A DNA stretch of 27,415 nt from a virus: positions 1-27,415 of the IMG/VR virus record IMGVR_UViG_3300017692_000006; one strand, given 5' to 3'. Every line of letters starts with the position of its first letter. Within the stretch, counting starts at the first letter, position 1. Position numbers and translations under genes: made by a program. Positions 11,901-26,219 of the stretch are shown here, piece by piece. Below the pieces are notes generated by a model. The model was not told where the DNA came from and did not search any database. It saw nothing but the letters and a program-made list of their open reading frames with translations.

Positions 11901-12328
11901 TTTTGGCCAGTGAAATTCTGTATAAGAAGGCTTTTCGGAAGGAGTACGGAGGCTGGAGTTCGGCTGTGGAACCCGCCCGAGGCGGTGATACGGGCGCCGC
12001 TGACATCAACGTTCTAAGCTATGATGGGCGGATCGTGCCTATCGAGCTAAAGCTTGGTTCGATCAAGGATTCGCGGATCTTTGTCAAGAAGCCCGGCATC
12101 CGGCCAGCGCAAATCGCTTGGCACTACGATCTTCACAGCCAAGGCGGCTTCAGCCTTCTCGCTATCGGCGTCGAGCACGAGAAGAAGTGGCTGACCTATT
12201 TCGTGGCTGGATCTAGGCTGGCTGGCTGGCGGGAAGGGTTCATTCCCGGCGATTCCTATGATGCCAAAACCCTTTTTGGTCGTGTCGCGGCGCTCACGAG
12301 ACAGCATTTCGATTTTAAAGCCCGCTGA
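11888..12328 (+). CDS. PD-(D/E)XK-type nuclease, Holliday-junction-resolvase/VRR-NUC-like
   Basis: The 144-146-residue product has the restriction-endonuclease fold layout: an N-terminal helix, then GGDTGAADINVL with an acidic residue, then VPIELKLG giving the E-x-K pair. Phage proteins like this cleave recombination or replication intermediates. KPGIRPAQIAWHYD and GGFSLLAIGV continue the alpha/beta core. No ATG is available in frame; TTG 11888 or GTG 11894 are the candidates, with GAGG at 11873-11876. It sits between the putative origin and a NusG-like gene. Resolvase versus general nuclease cannot be decided here. Confidence 0.72.
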   Translation: MKVSVLASEILYKKAFRKEYGGWSSAVEPARGGDTGAADINVLSYDGRIVPIELKLGSIKDSRIFVKKPGIRPAQIAWHYDLHSQGGFSLLAIGVEHEKKWLTYFVAGSRLAGWREGFIPGDSYDAKTLFGRVAALTRQHFDFKAR

Positions 12329-12338
12329 GAGGCGTTCT

Positions 12339-12350
12339 AGCCTTAAGGCT
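12339..12350. repeat. 12-bp perfect palindrome AGCCTTAAGGCT
   Basis: It lies in the 110-base gap between the nuclease and the KOW gene. It can form only a 4-bp-stem hairpin with a TTAA loop and has no T-run, so it is more likely a protein site than a terminator. No promoter was seen in the gap. Confidence 0.35.
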
Positions 12351-12438
12351 CCGCAACTACCGCCCAACCCTACAAATCGCGTCAGCGGCCATCCTCGTGC
12401 GAATAAACGCATATCCACATTCAAACGGAGCAATCATT

Positions 12439-12849
12439 TTGCAATTTAACATCATTCGCGTGGTTTCGAGCCGTGAATCTCTCGTTGCGGAGAAGCTGAA
12501 CGCGATCGAAGGCGTCACTGCCGCTGATCCTGGCTTGGGCGGCTATGTCTACGTCAACCTTGACGATGAGAACCTAGCGCAGAAGATCCGAAAGACGTTC
12601 GGGTTCATCAAGTTCGTGATGAGTGGGCCGAAATACGCCGTCGTTGACTATACGCCGCTTGAGCCTGAGAAGCCGAAGGAGGTGCCCGTGCTCGCGATCG
12701 GGGCACCTATCGTGGTTGTCGATGGGCCGTTCAAGGGGCAGAAAGGAATTGTTGCCTTGCAGGATGGCGATCAGGTCGAAGTCAGTATCCAAATGTTCGG
12801 GAAGCTTGCGCTTTTGCGGATGAGCGTTGATTGGATAGAGGGTACATAA
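12439..12849 (+). CDS. NusG-like transcription factor with KOW motif
   Basis: The 136-residue protein looks like a compact NusG paralogue: an N-terminal NGN-like domain (NIIRVVSSRESLVAEKLNAI, then GYVYVNLDDENLAQKI) and a C-terminal KOW domain (GAPIVVVDGPFKGQKGIV, then VEVSIQMFGKLALLRMS). Such proteins bind RNA polymerase and promote elongation or antitermination. TTG 12439 is chosen since CGGAG sits 8 bases upstream and the product then begins like NusG; a GTG at 12397 would add 14 residues without homology-like features. It might let phage transcription pass the terminators found here, which is inference. Confidence 0.8.
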   Translation: MQFNIIRVVSSRESLVAEKLNAIEGVTAADPGLGGYVYVNLDDENLAQKIRKTFGFIKFVMSGPKYAVVDYTPLEPEKPKEVPVLAIGAPIVVVDGPFKGQKGIVALQDGDQVEVSIQMFGKLALLRMSVDWIEGT

Positions 12850-12851
12850 AG

Positions 12852-12872
12852 AAAAAGGCCCCGAAGGGCCTT
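12852..12872 (-). terminator. intrinsic terminator for leftward gene
   Basis: A perfect 7-bp stem (12855-12861 with 12866-12872) and CGAA loop; read leftward it is followed by five U. It overlaps the stop of the leftward gene and separates it from the convergent KOW gene. The rightward side has only a short TT, so it is weaker in that direction. Confidence 0.75.
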
Positions 12873-13098
12873 AAAGGTATTCAGAAGCCATTCGCTTCGC
12901 AAAGCGAGGATCGTGACTAAATTGCTCTAAAGCCTCTTTGGCGTATTTAGTAGCAGTTGCCTTGGAGCGGAACGGGCGTCCTGCATCGCCAGGAATCAAA
13001 ACTTTGGCCTGCTTCGTGCCGTTGGAGACGATAAGAGCAGCACAAAACCAACCATCTTCGTTGGCGGTGTAGCTAGCCTGAACCTTTGAATTTTCCAT
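12871..13098 (-). CDS. hypothetical protein (75 aa), leftward
   Basis: A strong AAGGAGAGAAG precedes the ATG at 13098. The product is basic and soluble: ANEDGWFCAALIVSNGTKQA, then GRPFRSKATATKYAKEALEQ. It looks like a small alpha/beta protein, a possible nucleic-acid binder by charge only. Promoter candidate upstream at 13125-13153 and a terminator at its stop make it a monocistronic unit. Confidence 0.75.
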   Translation of the reverse strand: MENSKVQASYTANEDGWFCAALIVSNGTKQAKVLIPGDAGRPFRSKATATKYAKEALEQFSHDPRFAKRMASEYL

Positions 13099-13124
13099 CT
13101 CTTCTCTCCTTGTTCCGATAATTT

Positions 13125-13153
13125 ATATTCGCACATGGCCTAGAGGCTGTCAA
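13125..13153 (-). promoter_or_regulatory. leftward promoter candidate
   Basis: Read leftward: TTGACA (13153-13148), 17-bp spacer ending GC, then GAATAT; a TATAAA lies 3 bases further on. The -35 is perfect, the -10 weak. Confidence 0.5.
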
Positions 13154-13399
13154 CGAGTTTTTACAGCCAAGTTCCCTTTTTACGTAGTTTCCTAGCCTTA
13201 TCCATATAAATTGCATGGTGCTAAGGCATAGAACGATGAAAAGAGGCCACCAAAAGACAATTTGCATGGCAGGCGCGTGAAGCAAGATGGCCCTTTTCGT
13301 GCAACTTGGTAAAGACCATAAATCCATTATTTCGAACGTTTTGATAGCCTGGAATAACATCGCCGCGTCCAGTTCTTGCCTTGTGTGATACCGGGTTCA
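13154..13399 (-). other. stretch with no confident gene; doubtful membrane ORF
   Basis: About 250 bases between two leftward genes. A leftward frame open from ATG 13360 could encode a protein with one hydrophobic span (MQIVFWWPLFIVLCLSTMQF), but none of its starts has a clear ribosome binding site. The frame also runs on through the promoter and ribosome binding site of the downstream gene to 13073. It may be a decayed gene. Nothing else was seen. Confidence 0.3.
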
Positions 13400-13639
13400 T
13401 TACGCAGCCTTATAGGTAACGAAAACTTCGCCAGACTCGCAGGAAGCGAGACCGAAGTCGCCGCTGGTAGTACGAAAACCATTCTCGTTCAGGACACGGG
13501 CAACAACCTCCCAAGAGCCATCGAATACAACGCGAAAACCGTTATTCAGCATCTTTGTGCGGGCCTTAACGCCTTCGTTGAGGAGGACCAGAGCAACCAA
13601 GGCCTTGTCTTCCTTCGTGGTGTAAAGCAGCTTGGTCAT
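13400..13639 (-). CDS. hypothetical protein (79 aa), leftward
   Basis: ATG at 13639 preceded by CGGAGC. The protein (MTKLLYTTKEDKALVALVLL, then GFRVVFDGSWEVVARVLNEN, ending EVFVTYKAA) is soluble with no known motif. It has its own promoter at 13677-13705, divergent from the strong rightward promoter of the structured RNA. Confidence 0.75.
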   Translation of the reverse strand: MTKLLYTTKEDKALVALVLLNEGVKARTKMLNNGFRVVFDGSWEVVARVLNENGFRTTSGDFGLASCESGEVFVTYKAA

Positions 13640-13676
13640 TTATTTGCTCCGGTTCTTGTCTCGTTCTGTGATTAAA

Positions 13677-13705
13677 GATATAGCTCGCACTCAAACCCCC
13701 GTCAA
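13677..13705 (-). promoter_or_regulatory. leftward promoter, divergent from P4
   Basis: Read leftward: TTGACG (13705-13700), 17-bp spacer ggggtttgagtgcgagc, TATATC (13682-13677). Its -35 lies 34 bases from the rightward -35 of P4, so the two polymerases or a shared regulator could interfere. Confidence 0.7.
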
Positions 13706-13739
13706 CAAAAATCGTCACGTAACCCAAATTATTTTTCGC

Positions 13740-13768
13740 TTGACAAACGCTTCGAAATCGTCTATACT
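13740..13768 (+). promoter_or_regulatory. strong sigma70-type promoter P4 for structured RNA/terS
   Basis: TTGACA (13740-13745), 17-bp spacer aacgcttcgaaatcgtc with GAAAT at positions 9-13, TATACT (13763-13768). Closest to consensus of all promoters here together with P5. The expected start is near 13775, just before the closing stem of the RNA. Confidence 0.85.
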
Positions 13769-13774
13769 ATACCA

Positions 13775-14182
13775 CGCTAAAGGTTGCTCGCTACAACAGG
13801 TTTGGTCTCCTGCCTGTTCCTTGCTTGAGTCTAAGACCTAAAGCCTCCCGCCTCCCCTTGAATGGGTTTGAGGCAGGCGCGCCCAACTAACCTGTCCTCT
13901 CTCCGGGTTGGTTGGGCCTCTAATTGCATACAACCGGCGAAAGCCGCGCGCCGCGAATGGCGTACTTGTTAGGGGCGGTCCGTAAGGATGTAGCTGCAAT
14001 GCTACCGACTCGTTTGCGAAAGCAAAGAGCAAAAGCGCGCCCCATCTTAATCAGGACGTATGAGGCTCGGTAACGATGTCCTCAAGAGGCAGTGACTCCG
14101 ATGGGACTGCTATGCATAGAGCCAATGACTTTCGGATAGGTTGGCTCCGTCCTGATACTATATCTAGCGTAATAAGCAATTT
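13775..14182 (+). ncRNA. large structured RNA (about 400 nt) upstream of terS, unclassified
   Basis: No convincing ORF, but dense complementary segments. The ends pair: 13781-13793 with 14165-14182, with a TAATA bulge. Inside, in order, are: a hairpin (13795-13800/13813-13818) whose loop 13801-13808 can pair with 13834-13842, a pseudoknot; a bulged stem 13843-13857/13864-13878; a 13-bp stem 13881-13893/13905-13917; a three-way junction (13930-13933/13966-13969) with a GAAA-capped hairpin (13935-13946) and a second hairpin (13949-13962); a four-way junction closed by 13972-13977/14038-14043 with a GTAA hairpin (13978-13989), 13990-14005 and a GAAA hairpin (14009-14029); and a four-way junction closed by 9 bp (14050-14058/14148-14156) with hairpins 14061-14084 (GTAA loop), 14089-14110 and 14119-14147. 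Not recognisably tRNA, tmRNA, RNase P or group I/II intron. Confidence 0.8.
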
Positions 14183-14208
14183 CTACACAATATATGGATA
14201 TTTAAATT

Positions 14209-14631
14209 ATGGCCGAAATGCGACCAGTAGGCCGTCCGACGCTTTATCGCGAGGAATACGGCGACGTTATCATTGAATGGATGGACCAGGGTTTCAGCCT
14301 GTCCGCCGCTGCATCGCGCTTGGATGTCAGTCGAGGCACGGTCTATGATTGGCTAGATGCCAATCCCGAGTTCGCAGCCAAGGTCAAGATCGCGCAGAAC
14401 AAGCGCCAGTTCTTCCTTGAGAATCGCTTGCTGAAGGCGACTGAAGGCCCCGTAGTCACATCCTCCATCTTCGCTCTCAAGAACGCCGCCCCTGCCGACT
14501 GGCTAGAGAAGACTCACACAGAACTTACGGGCAAGGACGGCGGCGCGATCGAGACGAAGGCTTCGCTCGACGTCTCAGGCCTCAGCGATAGTGTTCTGGA
14601 AGAGTTGCTATCAAAGTTGGGGCAAAAGTAA
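14209..14631 (+). CDS. terS: terminase small subunit
   Basis: It recognises phage DNA to start packaging together with the large subunit. The 140 residues show RPVGRPTLYREEYGDVIIEW, then a helix-turn-helix (GFSLSAAASRLDVSRGTVYD) and a helical oligomerisation region, the common small-terminase layout. An acidic/Ser tail follows (DVSGLSDSVLEELLSKL). The ribosome binding site is poor (GGATA), with an AT-rich leader; an ATG at 14218 is an alternative start. It is read from P4 through the structured RNA with no terminator between. It is separated from terL by 2.8 kb of leftward genes. Confidence 0.85.
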   Translation: MAEMRPVGRPTLYREEYGDVIIEWMDQGFSLSAAASRLDVSRGTVYDWLDANPEFAAKVKIAQNKRQFFLENRLLKATEGPVVTSSIFALKNAAPADWLEKTHTELTGKDGGAIETKASLDVSGLSDSVLEELLSKLGQK

Positions 14632-14654
14632 AGGGCCTTCAGGGCCTTATTTTT
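14632..14654 (+). terminator. intrinsic terminator after terS
   Basis: 6-bp stem AGGGCC/GGCCTT with one G-U pair (14632-14637/14643-14648), TTCAG loop, then A and five T. The T-run abuts the stop of the convergent leftward gene. Confidence 0.7.
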
Positions 14655-20577: not shown

Positions 20578-20601
20578 ACTCGCTTTATGAGAGAGGCGAG
20601 C

Positions 20602-21297
20602 ATGGGCTGTGTTTACGAGATTACATTTCCCGATGACAGTCGTTATGTGGGGATGACTAAAAATCCGTTGGCATGGCGACTAGCACAACATCGCTATGAT
20701 TCAAAAGCCCTAAAACACGCTTCTAGCAGCAAAGTTTCTGAATTTGGCCTAACCCCAGAGATGGTTACGGTTCATATAGAGACCGACGATGAAGAGATTC
20801 GGGCGCTGTTAGAGGAAGAGCTTATTGCTCGACGAAGAACAGCTGATCTTGTTGTTCTAAATAATGCCAATGGCGGGTTTACCGCTAAGGGGTTCAGGCA
20901 CAGCCAAAAATCTAAGCAAGGCATGTCACTAGCTAAAAAGGGCATGTATGCCGGCGAGAAAAACCGCTTATCGAAGCTGACAGACGCGCAAGTGAAATCT
21001 ATTTTTATAGAGCTTCATGCCGGCGCGCTAAAAGCCGACATTCAAAAGAAGTATGGCGTTTCTAGTGGCTATATAACTGACCTTTGCACAGGGCATAAGT
21101 GGAAGCATATTGAGAGGCCAGAGGGCTTTGATCGCAAAGGTAAAGATCGACTTGTGACTGATGAACAAGTTAAAGATATTCGTAAGCGTGTCCTTAACGG
21201 CGAAAAACAAAACGCTTTAGGCAATGAATATGGCATATCAAAAGCTACAGTAAGTGCCATTGTGCATAGGCGTCTCTATAAGAATTTGAAAGATTAA
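20602..21297 (+). CDS. free-standing GIY-YIG homing-type endonuclease
   Basis: The N-terminal 95 residues are a GIY-YIG nuclease: VYEITFPDDSRYVGMTKNP (the GIY and YIG equivalents), WRLAQH with the conserved Arg, LLEEELI with the metal-binding Glu, and LNNANGG. The C-terminal half has two DNA-binding repeats: EKNRLSKLTDAQVKSI...YGVSSGYITDL and RLVTDEQVKDIRKRV...YGISKATVSAI. This modular layout is typical of phage homing endonucleases. ATG 20602 is chosen (AGAGAGG upstream); ATG 20587 would almost coincide with the transcription start. It sits one base before portal and may have inserted itself, with the small gene, between terL and portal. Confidence 0.88.
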   Translation: MGCVYEITFPDDSRYVGMTKNPLAWRLAQHRYDSKALKHASSSKVSEFGLTPEMVTVHIETDDEEIRALLEEELIARRRTADLVVLNNANGGFTAKGFRHSQKSKQGMSLAKKGMYAGEKNRLSKLTDAQVKSIFIELHAGALKADIQKKYGVSSGYITDLCTGHKWKHIERPEGFDRKGKDRLVTDEQVKDIRKRVLNGEKQNALGNEYGISKATVSAIVHRRLYKNLKD

Positions 21298-22646: not shown

Positions 22647-25600
22647 ATGCCGTCTTCTGATAAGTTCGAGCGCTTGGCGACAAACAATCATAGGTATGCC
22701 TATGTGAGCGCCTTTTCCATGTCGTCCAAGACCGTTTCGGGCAAGTCAGGCCCGAACGCCAAGGTTCCTATCTACCTGAGCGGCAGTCTTGTGACGACTG
22801 TCACGGCAAACGCATCGGGTCAGTGGAATTACGTGTTCGACACGGCTCCGACCGTTGGTCAGGTGATTACCGTTGGCGGTGCGATTCAGTCGGCTCCGTT
22901 CGTTGTGACCGATAGCAATCTGCCTGTCAATCCTAGCCCGCTGATCTCGACACAGGCCGCGCTTGTGTCGGCTCTTGCGACTGCGACGGGCGGTCAGGTG
23001 CTTCGCCTTGCCTCTAGCGGTTCGCCTTATTCGATTGCTGTCGAAAACCTTGCGCCCACGAGCGAACTCAAGATCGTTTCTGACGATCCTTTGGTCCCTG
23101 CAACGATCGATATTGTTGCCAAGGCTGGCTCTGGTGGCGGCATTCTTTCGGGCTGGAAGAACGTCACGTTCGAAAATATCAAGTTCGACCGTACCGCGCT
23201 GAACTACACGGCACGCCAGCAGTTCGTGCCGAATATCCATCTGAATGCTCCTGATACCGTCAAGGTCATCAATTGTATCTTCAAGGGACGTGCAACGGCA
23301 CGTTGGCCCGGCGATACGAACCCAGACAGCATCACCAAGGGCGACATGGGCATTCGCTTCGTCAGCCCGAAGAATTGCGTCGTTTCCGGTAACTCGACGG
23401 ATGGCTATGGCTTCTGGCTTCAGGCCACTGGCGACGGTCAGGACAACAACACCTACTCGAACAACAACATTCGCCGCTCGCAGTTCGATGGAATGCAGTT
23501 CATCGGTGGCGGTAACGGCCTGACGATCACGGGCAACGATATCTCCGATCTTCTCGGTTCGATCAACAACGATTCGACCGATAGCGGCAATCATGACGAC
23601 CTGATTCAGATCGCCACGAGCGGTTCGGCCACAGGCTGGGATAATATCTCCGTTCTCCGCAACTTCCTTGATGGTGGCGGCAAGGATACGCCTCAGGGCA
23701 TCTTTGTCAAGGACGAAGACCTCAAGGGCATCCGCAGCCTCACAATCTCTGACAACGCGATTCGCAATAGTCAGGCGAACGGCATCGGTGTTAACGCCAA
23801 TAGCGGCCCTGGCATCTCTGCGACGATCGCGAACAACCTCGTTCTTTGGTCCGCTGTCCCGCACGATCCGGTCGATGCTCAGATCACGCAGACGAAGCCT
23901 TTTATCAACCTGACGAACGGCGTTACGGGTACGGCTTCGAACAACCTGTCTAGCGGCTATGCCTTTACAGGCTCGACAGTTACGCAGACGGCCAATGTCA
24001 CGATCAATTACACCGATACGGCCAACGTTCTCTATGCGGAAAACATCCTTCCCGGCTCGCTCGCAACTGGCGTGGATAAGTATCGTGTCCGCGAGGCTAT
24101 GCTTCCTGTCGATTACGTCGCTGGTCCTAGCATCATTAAGCGTTCGCTTTCGCTTCAGGCCAATCGCTTCTTTGGCCTCTCCGCTGGTCAGAGCAATCAG
24201 GAATATTTCTATACCAATAGCCGTATGGAATTCCAGTCGGCGCTTAACGACAATTCGCCGGCTGCCGTTTCCTATACGTTCGGTAATGGTGCGACCGAAG
24301 GTTCTGCCCTTCTCGATGTCAACAAGCCAGCTTACGATTCTGCACGCCCAGAAAGAGTTACATACTATTGGTGGAATGAAGGACCTGGAACTCCCGGTCC
24401 TCGCTATGACAAGTGGTCCGCTGCCGTCGATGCGGCTGTGGCTGCCGGTCGTCGTGTAGACTTCACGATCTGGAACCAGGGCGAAGGCGACGCCTTCTTC
24501 ATTGGCGCTAGCGATGCACAGGCGACACGCTACTTCAACGCTCGCGCGCTTTTGTTCGCGACCATGCGCGCCAAGGTTCCGGGGCTGAGGATCTTCCTCG
24601 CGCCTATGAACCGCCGCGACGTGGATTACTCCGCGCTAACGGCCAACTACATCGGGGGTATCGAGAAGATCCGTGATTTCGATCCGGTCTATGCGGCTGC
24701 GAATCCTAGCTTCTGCACGATTCTACCGGAAATGTACGATCAGCCGGGCGATGGTGGAGCGCACTCTGTTGATGCCGGTTATGATACGCTGGCGATTCGT
24801 TTTGCTCGCAAGATCGCGAAGACCTATGGCTATACCGTTTCTGGCGGTGTCGATGGCCCGCGTCTTATTGCGGCGGCGCGTAACGGTACGACGGTCGTCT
24901 TCGAGTTCGCTCATGATGGCGGCACGGCGCTTACTCCTGCAAGCGCGAATGAAGGCCTTCGCTATGCGGCCAACGGTACGGCAATTGCTCTGTCGAATAT
25001 CTCTGTGACGGATGCAACTCATGTGACGGCAACGCTTGCCAGCACGCCCGCGAATGGCGCAACGGAAGTCGCTGAGTTCGGTTATGGTACGCTTGGTACG
25101 ATCGTTTGGCAGAACATGATCCGCGACAACCAGACGGTTCCCCTGCCCGTGCGCCACGGCAAGGTTACGCCGACTGTCAATGCAGCGGCTGACACGACGC
25201 CTCCGGTCATCACGAGCCCGGCAACAGGCACGACGGCGAACAACACGGCCTATACCACGACGCTTGTCGCTAACGAGCCCGTTACCTTCTCCAAGCGTAC
25301 CGGAGATCAAACGGCCAACTTCACTCTGACGCAGGCAACCGTTCCTTCCACGACGGCAACCCTGACCTTCCCTGCAACCACGACGGCCGGCACGAACATC
25401 GCAAACCTTCGGGCTACCGATGCCGCTACAACGCCGAATGTCACTGACTTCACGCATACTCTGACCGTCAACGCGGCAACGGCCAACATCTCTTCCGTTT
25501 GGTCTAACCCGCTCTTCAACCGCAAGGCCTCGGTCAATAACGGCCAGACGCTTCAAAACCAGATTGCGGCACCGGCTGATAGTTCTACGCAGACCGCTTA

Positions 25601-26219
25601 TGATGCGTTCCTTGGCTCGTCTACCTCTACGGGTACGGATGATCCGACCTTTGTTGCAGCCTCTGGCGGCGTTCCCGCCTATTTCCGCAATGATGGTGGC
25701 GATAGCATTCAGACCGTTTCAACCGACTTCCTCAAGACGCTGAGCCTAAACAAGTCGTGGTCTTATGCCATGCTGATCAAGGCACCTAGCGTTTGGACGG
25801 CAGGCACAGTTCCGGTTTTGTTCGGTGCGGGCGCGAACGTTGCTTCTAATCCCGGCATTCAGGCTCGCTACGTCGTCAACAACAATCAGATCCGTATTGC
25901 AACGGCAGACGGCTCAACTGGTCCTTCCGTCAATTTGACGGCTACTCTGCCGACTTCCGGCTACATCATGGTCGCTATGACTTATGATGCCTCTACGAAG
26001 ACGTTGACCTTCTATATCAACTCGACAACGTCTCTAACGGTTCCGGCGACGACCAGCCTTAACGGTGGAACCGCAACTTCTAACTTCCTGACTGGTTCCG
26101 CTCTTTCGGATGGTGCTGGCTGGATCGAAGATGTGATGTCTACCGGCATTAAGACCTCGACTGATGTCGGCGCTCTGCGAGATTACTGGCAGACTCAGTA
26201 TGGCATCACAATCTTCTAA
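22647..26219 (+). CDS. tailspike/adhesin: Ig-like, beta-helix, SGNH esterase and lectin-like modules (1190 aa)
   Basis: A modular receptor-binding protein or depolymerase. Residues about 25-90 form an Ig-like repeat (TVTANASGQWNYVF). About 100-450 form a right-handed beta-helix rich in N-x-I/V rungs (GNDISDLL, ISDNAIRNSQANGIGV). About 505-730 are an SGNH-type carbohydrate esterase: SAGQSNQ with Ser516, IWNQGEGDA (608-616) and GAHSVDAGY with His706. Then come an Ig-like segment (TTPPVITSPATGTTANN) and, from about 970, a concanavalin/LamG-like domain (FYINSTTSLTVPATTSLNGG). The esterase could deacetylate host polysaccharide. AAGGAACC supports the ATG. Its place next to portal is unusual. Confidence 0.82.
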   Translation: MPSSDKFERLATNNHRYAYVSAFSMSSKTVSGKSGPNAKVPIYLSGSLVTTVTANASGQWNYVFDTAPTVGQVITVGGAIQSAPFVVTDSNLPVNPSPLISTQAALVSALATATGGQVLRLASSGSPYSIAVENLAPTSELKIVSDDPLVPATIDIVAKAGSGGGILSGWKNVTFENIKFDRTALNYTARQQFVPNIHLNAPDTVKVINCIFKGRATARWPGDTNPDSITKGDMGIRFVSPKNCVVSGNSTDGYGFWLQATGDGQDNNTYSNNNIRRSQFDGMQFIGGGNGLTITGNDISDLLGSINNDSTDSGNHDDLIQIATSGSATGWDNISVLRNFLDGGGKDTPQGIFVKDEDLKGIRSLTISDNAIRNSQANGIGVNANSGPGISATIANNLVLWSAVPHDPVDAQITQTKPFINLTNGVTGTASNNLSSGYAFTGSTVTQTANVTINYTDTANVLYAENILPGSLATGVDKYRVREAMLPVDYVAGPSIIKRSLSLQANRFFGLSAGQSNQEYFYTNSRMEFQSALNDNSPAAVSYTFGNGATEGSALLDVNKPAYDSARPERVTYYWWNEGPGTPGPRYDKWSAAVDAAVAAGRRVDFTIWNQGEGDAFFIGASDAQATRYFNARALLFATMRAKVPGLRIFLAPMNRRDVDYSALTANYIGGIEKIRDFDPVYAAANPSFCTILPEMYDQPGDGGAHSVDAGYDTLAIRFARKIAKTYGYTVSGGVDGPRLIAAARNGTTVVFEFAHDGGTALTPASANEGLRYAANGTAIALSNISVTDATHVTATLASTPANGATEVAEFGYGTLGTIVWQNMIRDNQTVPLPVRHGKVTPTVNAAADTTPPVITSPATGTTANNTAYTTTLVANEPVTFSKRTGDQTANFTLTQATVPSTTATLTFPATTTAGTNIANLRATDAATTPNVTDFTHTLTVNAATANISSVWSNPLFNRKASVNNGQTLQNQIAAPADSSTQTAYDAFLGSSTSTGTDDPTFVAASGGVPAYFRNDGGDSIQTVSTDFLKTLSLNKSWSYAMLIKAPSVWTAGTVPVLFGAGANVASNPGIQARYVVNNNQIRIATADGSTGPSVNLTATLPTSGYIMVAMTYDASTKTLTFYINSTTSLTVPATTSLNGGTATSNFLTGSALSDGAGWIEDVMSTGIKTSTDVGALRDYWQTQYGITIF

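Follow-up and report, generated by a model that had tools for sequence, protein, structure and literature searches.

The window, by which we mean the whole 27.4 kb stretch of a viral record that was analysed, carries DNA-metabolism genes followed by terS, TerL and portal genes. Ahead of terS, on the + strand, lies a sigma-70 promoter (TTGACA-17-TATACT, positions 13740 to 13768), recognised by 11 of 12 matches to the consensus, which by its sequence drives an array of RNA modules. A preliminary description had placed a near-consensus promoter a few bases before an RNA at this site, and the position of the first module, from 13776, bears this out. This promoter is the best in the surrounding 6.4 kb, with no second one of 11/12 quality across 11.6-18.0 kb, and an A/T-rich run immediately 5' of it appears UP-like by eye. 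The nearest relatives of the RNR of this phage were found mainly in phages of alphaproteobacteria, whilst for TerL the closest annotated relative was that of a Xanthomonas phage. The cumulative GC skew reaches its maximum near 13 kb (approximately 12000-13500) and falls thereafter, the turn coinciding with the border between DNA-metabolism and packaging genes, where the array also lies. Further downstream, a GIY-YIG homing endonuclease-like gene (20587-21297) is situated between TerL and portal, and 3' of the portal gene an ORF of 1190 aa (22647-26219) is without a Pfam or PHROG match. A small minus-strand ORF beside the array (13640-13712) has an apparent promoter of its own (TTGACG-17-TATATC), which falls outside the rule of the promoter scan and so went unflagged by it; the leader of this ORF (...AATCACAGAA...GGAGCAA) recurs before another small minus-strand ORF at 3920-3990 of L006, one of the related loci described below.

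Folding of the 469-nt region from 13740 to 14208 gave a minimum free energy (MFE) of -163.7 kcal/mol (z -4.23), which none of 100 shuffled sequences reached, compared with a z of about -0.4 for the terS gene, which is of similar length; the strong fold that had been expected here was thereby confirmed. Because of this fold (z -4.2) and of covariation in two of its three modules, the stretch 13776-14158 is a real structured RNA of the + strand. All four GNRA hairpins described previously (GAAA twice, GUAA twice) are visible in the MFE structure. The multi-branch junctions of that description were also recovered, in modules B and C, but its pseudoknot is plausible only, as a contact between two loops of module C, those of P3 and P4. 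G-U exceeded A-C in the helices by 44 to 7, pointing to an RNA of the + strand, albeit with a bias from the use of this strand in drawing the helices.

Searches of IMG/VR with TerS and TerL retrieved five further loci (L002 to L006), and exact-pattern scans that used fragments of several modules led to these contigs again. The six loci, all of them contigs rather than isolates, represent approximately three lineages, four of the loci forming one close clade. In each of the six, TTGACAAAC and the -10 region of the array promoter are kept, with a perfect TATAAT in L004 and L005. The modules behind it, for which the labels A to K were coined in this analysis, differ considerably. In the window the array is at its shortest, A-B-C, whilst L003 reads A-E-K-B-C and L002 reads A-I-D-E-K-B-C, with 222 and 327 nt, respectively, of extra modules at position 13927/13929 of the window. 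The order in L006 is A-I-D-E-J-F-C-tRNA-Met, in L005 it is A-(unnamed)-D-B'-H-tRNA-Pro-F-C, and in L004 it is A-tRNA-Trp-G-tRNA-Pro. Thus, of the single RNA of about 400 nt envisaged earlier, the structured stretch is real, but as a unit it is incomplete, the organisation being that of a mosaic array of cassettes and tRNAs. The position of the extra modules lies in an A/U-rich linker, CUCUAAUUGCAU, at 13918 to 13929 of the + strand; by simple count, AAUU is frequent in the intermodule linkers, where it is mostly predicted to be unpaired.

Module exchange among these phages, as read from the alignments, takes place amid otherwise conserved surroundings, since neighbouring genes are 87-93% identical between phages with differing modules. 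Module E is common to L002, L003 and L006, module F to L005 and L006, and module D to L002, L005 and L006. As module D has a mean column identity of 94%, whilst the terS nucleotides of the window and L005 are only 79% alike, the modules appear to move, or to be held, apart from their neighbours. Transfer RNA genes are array members in three loci (Trp and Pro in L004, Pro in L005 and Met in L006; ARAGORN and Rfam, with good covariance scores), where they share the array with the other modules, and every tRNA detected in these three contigs sits in the array. None was found in the window (27.4 kb), L002 or L003.

Module A (13776 to 13917, + strand) comprises three covarying hairpin domains (13781-13839, 13850-13874 and 13881-13917) and is the first module after the promoter in all six loci. 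Its identity between the window and L003 is 98%, that of terS being 90%. Covariation was counted on MAFFT alignments that were not structure-fitted, with structures taken from RNAalifold or MFE folding of the same sequences. For module A (six sequences), 45 pairs were 93% paired and included 16 double-change pairs against 7.9 in shuffles, a count reached by 0 of 500 shuffles. The 5' and 3' ends of the region (13781-13793 with 14165-14182) had been proposed to close the RNA by pairing, which is not borne out by conservation in the relatives. The 3' strand (UAGCG...AGCAA, 14165-14179) is missing from L005 and L006, and in L002 and L003 its AGCAA part is changed to AGAAA with no compensation. The 5' strand, moreover, has competing local partners within module A (AGGUU/GACCU and GCUC/GAGU), a pairing that is intact in all close relatives and, by eye, present in altered form in L004 and L005.

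Module B (13930 to 14043, + strand) consists of an ACAA/UUGU-closed pair of hairpins, one with a GAAA loop, followed by a three-hairpin junction closed by GGGGCG/CGCGCCCC. It is the least tested module, its covariation amounting to one stem double change among three close sequences (GUAGC/GCUAC in the window versus GUGGC/GCCAC in L002 and L003); its first 40 nt recur in L005. Module C (14050 to 14158, + strand) is a four-way junction with the closing helix AUCAGGACG/CGUCCUGAU (14050-14058 with 14148-14156), in which P2 is GUAA-capped and the loops of P3 and P4 are complementary (UCCGA with UCGGA). Across five sequences, 30 pairs were paired in 95.3% of cells, with nine double-change pairs against 2.3 in shuffles, and again none of 500 shuffles attained the observed number, so that the covariance sought in homologues was obtained for both A and C. 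As a control, the pairing of module C collapsed once the partner strand was slid. Its outer helix is invariant and hence silent on covariation. Kissing between the P3 and P4 loops is plausible from the alignment, in which 96% of cells are paired and a C to A change in L002 is matched by G to U, a single compensatory change. Protein coding was ruled out, as the lengths of module C (107, 109, 110, 107 and 111 nt) differ by non-multiples of three, in keeping with the earlier view that the region holds no convincing gene. A covariance model of module C gave one match in each of five loci, where it is the last non-tRNA module; L004 is without it.

A place at the front for A and at the back for C is likewise compatible with a single uninterrupted RNA whose central part varies, on the pattern of GOLLD, an RNA that assembles as a 14-mer cage. 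Read thus, the array would be an ornate RNA of the GOLLD or ROOL type, with A as its 5' domain, C as its 3' domain and the remaining modules, whether or not tRNAs are among them, as linker, perhaps forming an RNA-only particle. The layout of GOLLD is alike (PMC12286853), kissing-loop and GNRA elements are at hand, A is always 5', C is 3' in every locus but L004, and ACGCUA/UAGCGU could pair the ends in three loci (window, L002 and L003). Yet L004 consists of A with two tRNAs and no C, L005 and L006 are devoid of the end pairing, tRNA-Met follows directly upon C in L006, and no Rfam likeness to GOLLD or ROOL was found, which together render a continuous RNA rather unlikely in our judgement.

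Downstream of the array, terS (14209 to 14631, + strand; PF20901 / phrog_309) is a neighbour lying outside the RNA, and the first intrinsic-terminator-like hairpin on the + strand past the promoter follows it at 14632 to 14648. The preliminary description was accurate in noting that, in the window, no terminator separates the RNA from terS, whose ribosome site is poor, and had suggested a role in packaging or in control of terS translation. It is on these features that a terS leader, a packaging RNA or a pac-type DNA site could be argued for. However, three features of L006, namely tRNA-Met, a terminator-like hairpin and a minus-strand ORF, stand between the array and a terS that belongs to the unrelated PF03592 family, so that neither the position right before terS nor, by this comparison, the identity of terS is constant for the array. 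The terS genes of L004 and L005 are, in addition, preceded by both an array and a strong AAGGAGG site, and the excess of G-U over A-C favours RNA over a DNA site. A function of this kind accordingly appears very improbable. Comparison of L006 (4023-4484) with the window (14209-14631) further revealed that terS has been replaced by the PF03592 family with the final ~23 codons still homologous, which on these sequences marks a recombination joint inside terS.

Upstream of the promoter, a small NusG/RfaH-like protein is encoded at 12397 to 12849 of the + strand. Its best PDB matches were all NusG, Spt5 or RfaH (best E 0.0056), its KOW match (E 0.0014) was below the cut-off, and an AlphaFold model had a mean pLDDT of 44, too poor to use. 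The gene adjoins the array promoter in L002, L003 and L006, whilst in the window two minus-strand ORFs intervene; this proximity in three loci suggests a link to transcription, the identification of the protein itself being weak. Module A, invariantly promoter-proximal, might on this account promote antitermination from within the nascent RNA, in the manner of put or EAR elements and perhaps together with the NusG-like protein, and so permit readthrough of the structured array and its tRNAs. Against this, A is kept in L004 and L005, in whose contigs (15.8 and 66.5 kb) the NusG-like gene was not found, modules B to F would be left unexplained, and the L006 array stops at a terminator-like hairpin. 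We regard antitermination as improbable.

Module D (L002 3044-3132, L005 4318-4408 and L006 3098-3185) is compact and pseudoknotted, with an HDV-like double-pseudoknot topology and a UCCCC/GGGGA helix of which the fifth pair covaries, and is possibly a new small RNA fold, as predicted from these three copies. Since tRNAs are interspersed with the modules, and theta ribozymes, which are HDV-like, mature tRNAs in other phages (PMC10879173), the modules might be self-cleaving ribozymes with a similar task. An HDV-like ribozyme identity of module D was nevertheless ruled out, the catalytic C being missing: its J4/2 reads GAAA where that C would be expected, and the room for P3 is insufficient. Nor does D ever adjoin a tRNA, at the 3' end of which a ribozyme of this type would be expected to cut. 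With no ribozyme match in Rfam, and no tRNA at all in the window, tRNA maturation by such ribozymes is scarcely credible.

Searches of databases supported the earlier proposal of an undescribed or distant phage RNA class, in that an RNA with covariation was without an Rfam family and without a homologue among GenBank phages and plasmids. Scanning of the window region against Rfam gave no match even at E 10 except by chance, and at gathering and permissive thresholds only tRNA exceeded the cut-off across all loci. The covariance model of GOLLD (RF02032) exceeded its cut-off in none of the six records, with one chance match of 4.4 bits elsewhere, the ROOL model gave no match at E up to 10 (or 5), and the phi29 packaging RNA was likewise without an Rfam match, in a phage that has terS and a Terminase_3 TerL. 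BLAST of the window RNA against GenBank phages and plasmids returned chance matches of 20-37 nt only; for the L005 and L006 arrays, the matches listed among phages were tRNA genes or short matches to tRNA regions. The module C model found known members only in 883 kb of mostly TerL relatives, and none in 385 genomes from the class to which Roseibium belongs, under stricter filters and without a positive control. Candidates L100-L109, obtained when the patterns for A and C were relaxed and run on contigs of IMG/VR and GTDB, were not convincingly supported by the module C model, of which the best match (18.2 bits, E 0.045) had broken pairs and lay in a different place from the pattern match. Rhizobium and Sinorhizobium phages (closest by RNR) and Erythrobacter phage ZS04 were dismissed as array-bearing isolates, there being no module C in the stretches examined. 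Within the collections searched, the known range is one small phage group, with the proviso that exact patterns can miss remote members.

The reading we prefer, at a probability of about 0.55, is that of a non-coding, strongly transcribed operon in a tailed phage, whose structured RNAs would be separate and stable, act in trans and be handled much as a phage tRNA array is. The strong host-type promoter would start one transcript of self-contained folded modules (~70-150 nt each), joined via short A/U-rich linkers and, in relatives, with tRNA genes among the members. Host RNases (of the RNase P and RNase E type) would then cleave this precursor in the linkers and at the boundaries of tRNAs, and the stable RNAs so released would act in trans during infection. 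Their target, in our judgement, would most likely be the translation or tRNA side of host takeover, or a host defence directed at tRNA or RNA, a field that is favoured because of the link to tRNAs and the fast turnover of modules. Such quick turnover amid neighbours that are so closely alike is as expected of an accessory host-interaction locus. More tentatively, the array may represent a locus of a new kind, an RNA 'cassette island'. Non-coding structured modules, each folding in its own way and directed at a target of its own, would here come, go and change places with tRNAs, whilst the promoter and the first module stay the same. Such an island would be an RNA counterpart of accessory anti-defence gene islands; this we consider possible but some way from probable. 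The array would also carry the idea of mosaicism in phage islands beyond genes, to RNA that is non-coding. The modules, being separable, naturally shuffled, backed by covariation and ~110 nt in size, are testable singly, their losses and swaps among close relatives provide natural comparisons, and the tRNA link is directly testable.

Several known systems resemble the array in part. GOLLD and ROOL are large phage-borne RNAs near or holding tRNAs, without known function (PMC12286853, PMC6582537, PMC7567579). In GOLLD, the 3' domain is conserved, the 5' domain less so, and the variable linker sometimes contains tRNAs (PMC12286853); a like layout is seen in five of our six loci, L004 lacking the 3' module, and elaborate junctions and, in some loci, tRNAs in or beside the RNA are further similarities. 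The array differs in comprising smaller, independent modules that move separately, C being missing from L004. ROOL, too, is large, ornate and phage-borne and frequently neighbours tRNA islands, but no array locus matched it in cmscan. The theta ribozymes also lie beside phage tRNAs and have a topology similar to that of module D, which differs in its missing catalytic C and in its position relative to the tRNAs. Phage ICP1, which has no tRNAs, produces an abundant noncoding RNA of ~800 nt (PMC7567579), comparable as an unclassified long phage RNA in gene-free space, though no such match arose in blastn of the phage collection. Phage tRNA arrays with embedded noncoding RNA, such as the mycobacterial phage-derived cluster of 32 tRNAs that contains GOLLD and an HNH gene (PMC6582537), likewise bring tRNAs and structured RNA together; here, by contrast, the non-tRNA modules outnumber the tRNAs and make up the entire array in the window, L002 and L003. 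Whilst a member of neither the GOLLD nor the ROOL family, the array may act in the manner of these RNAs.
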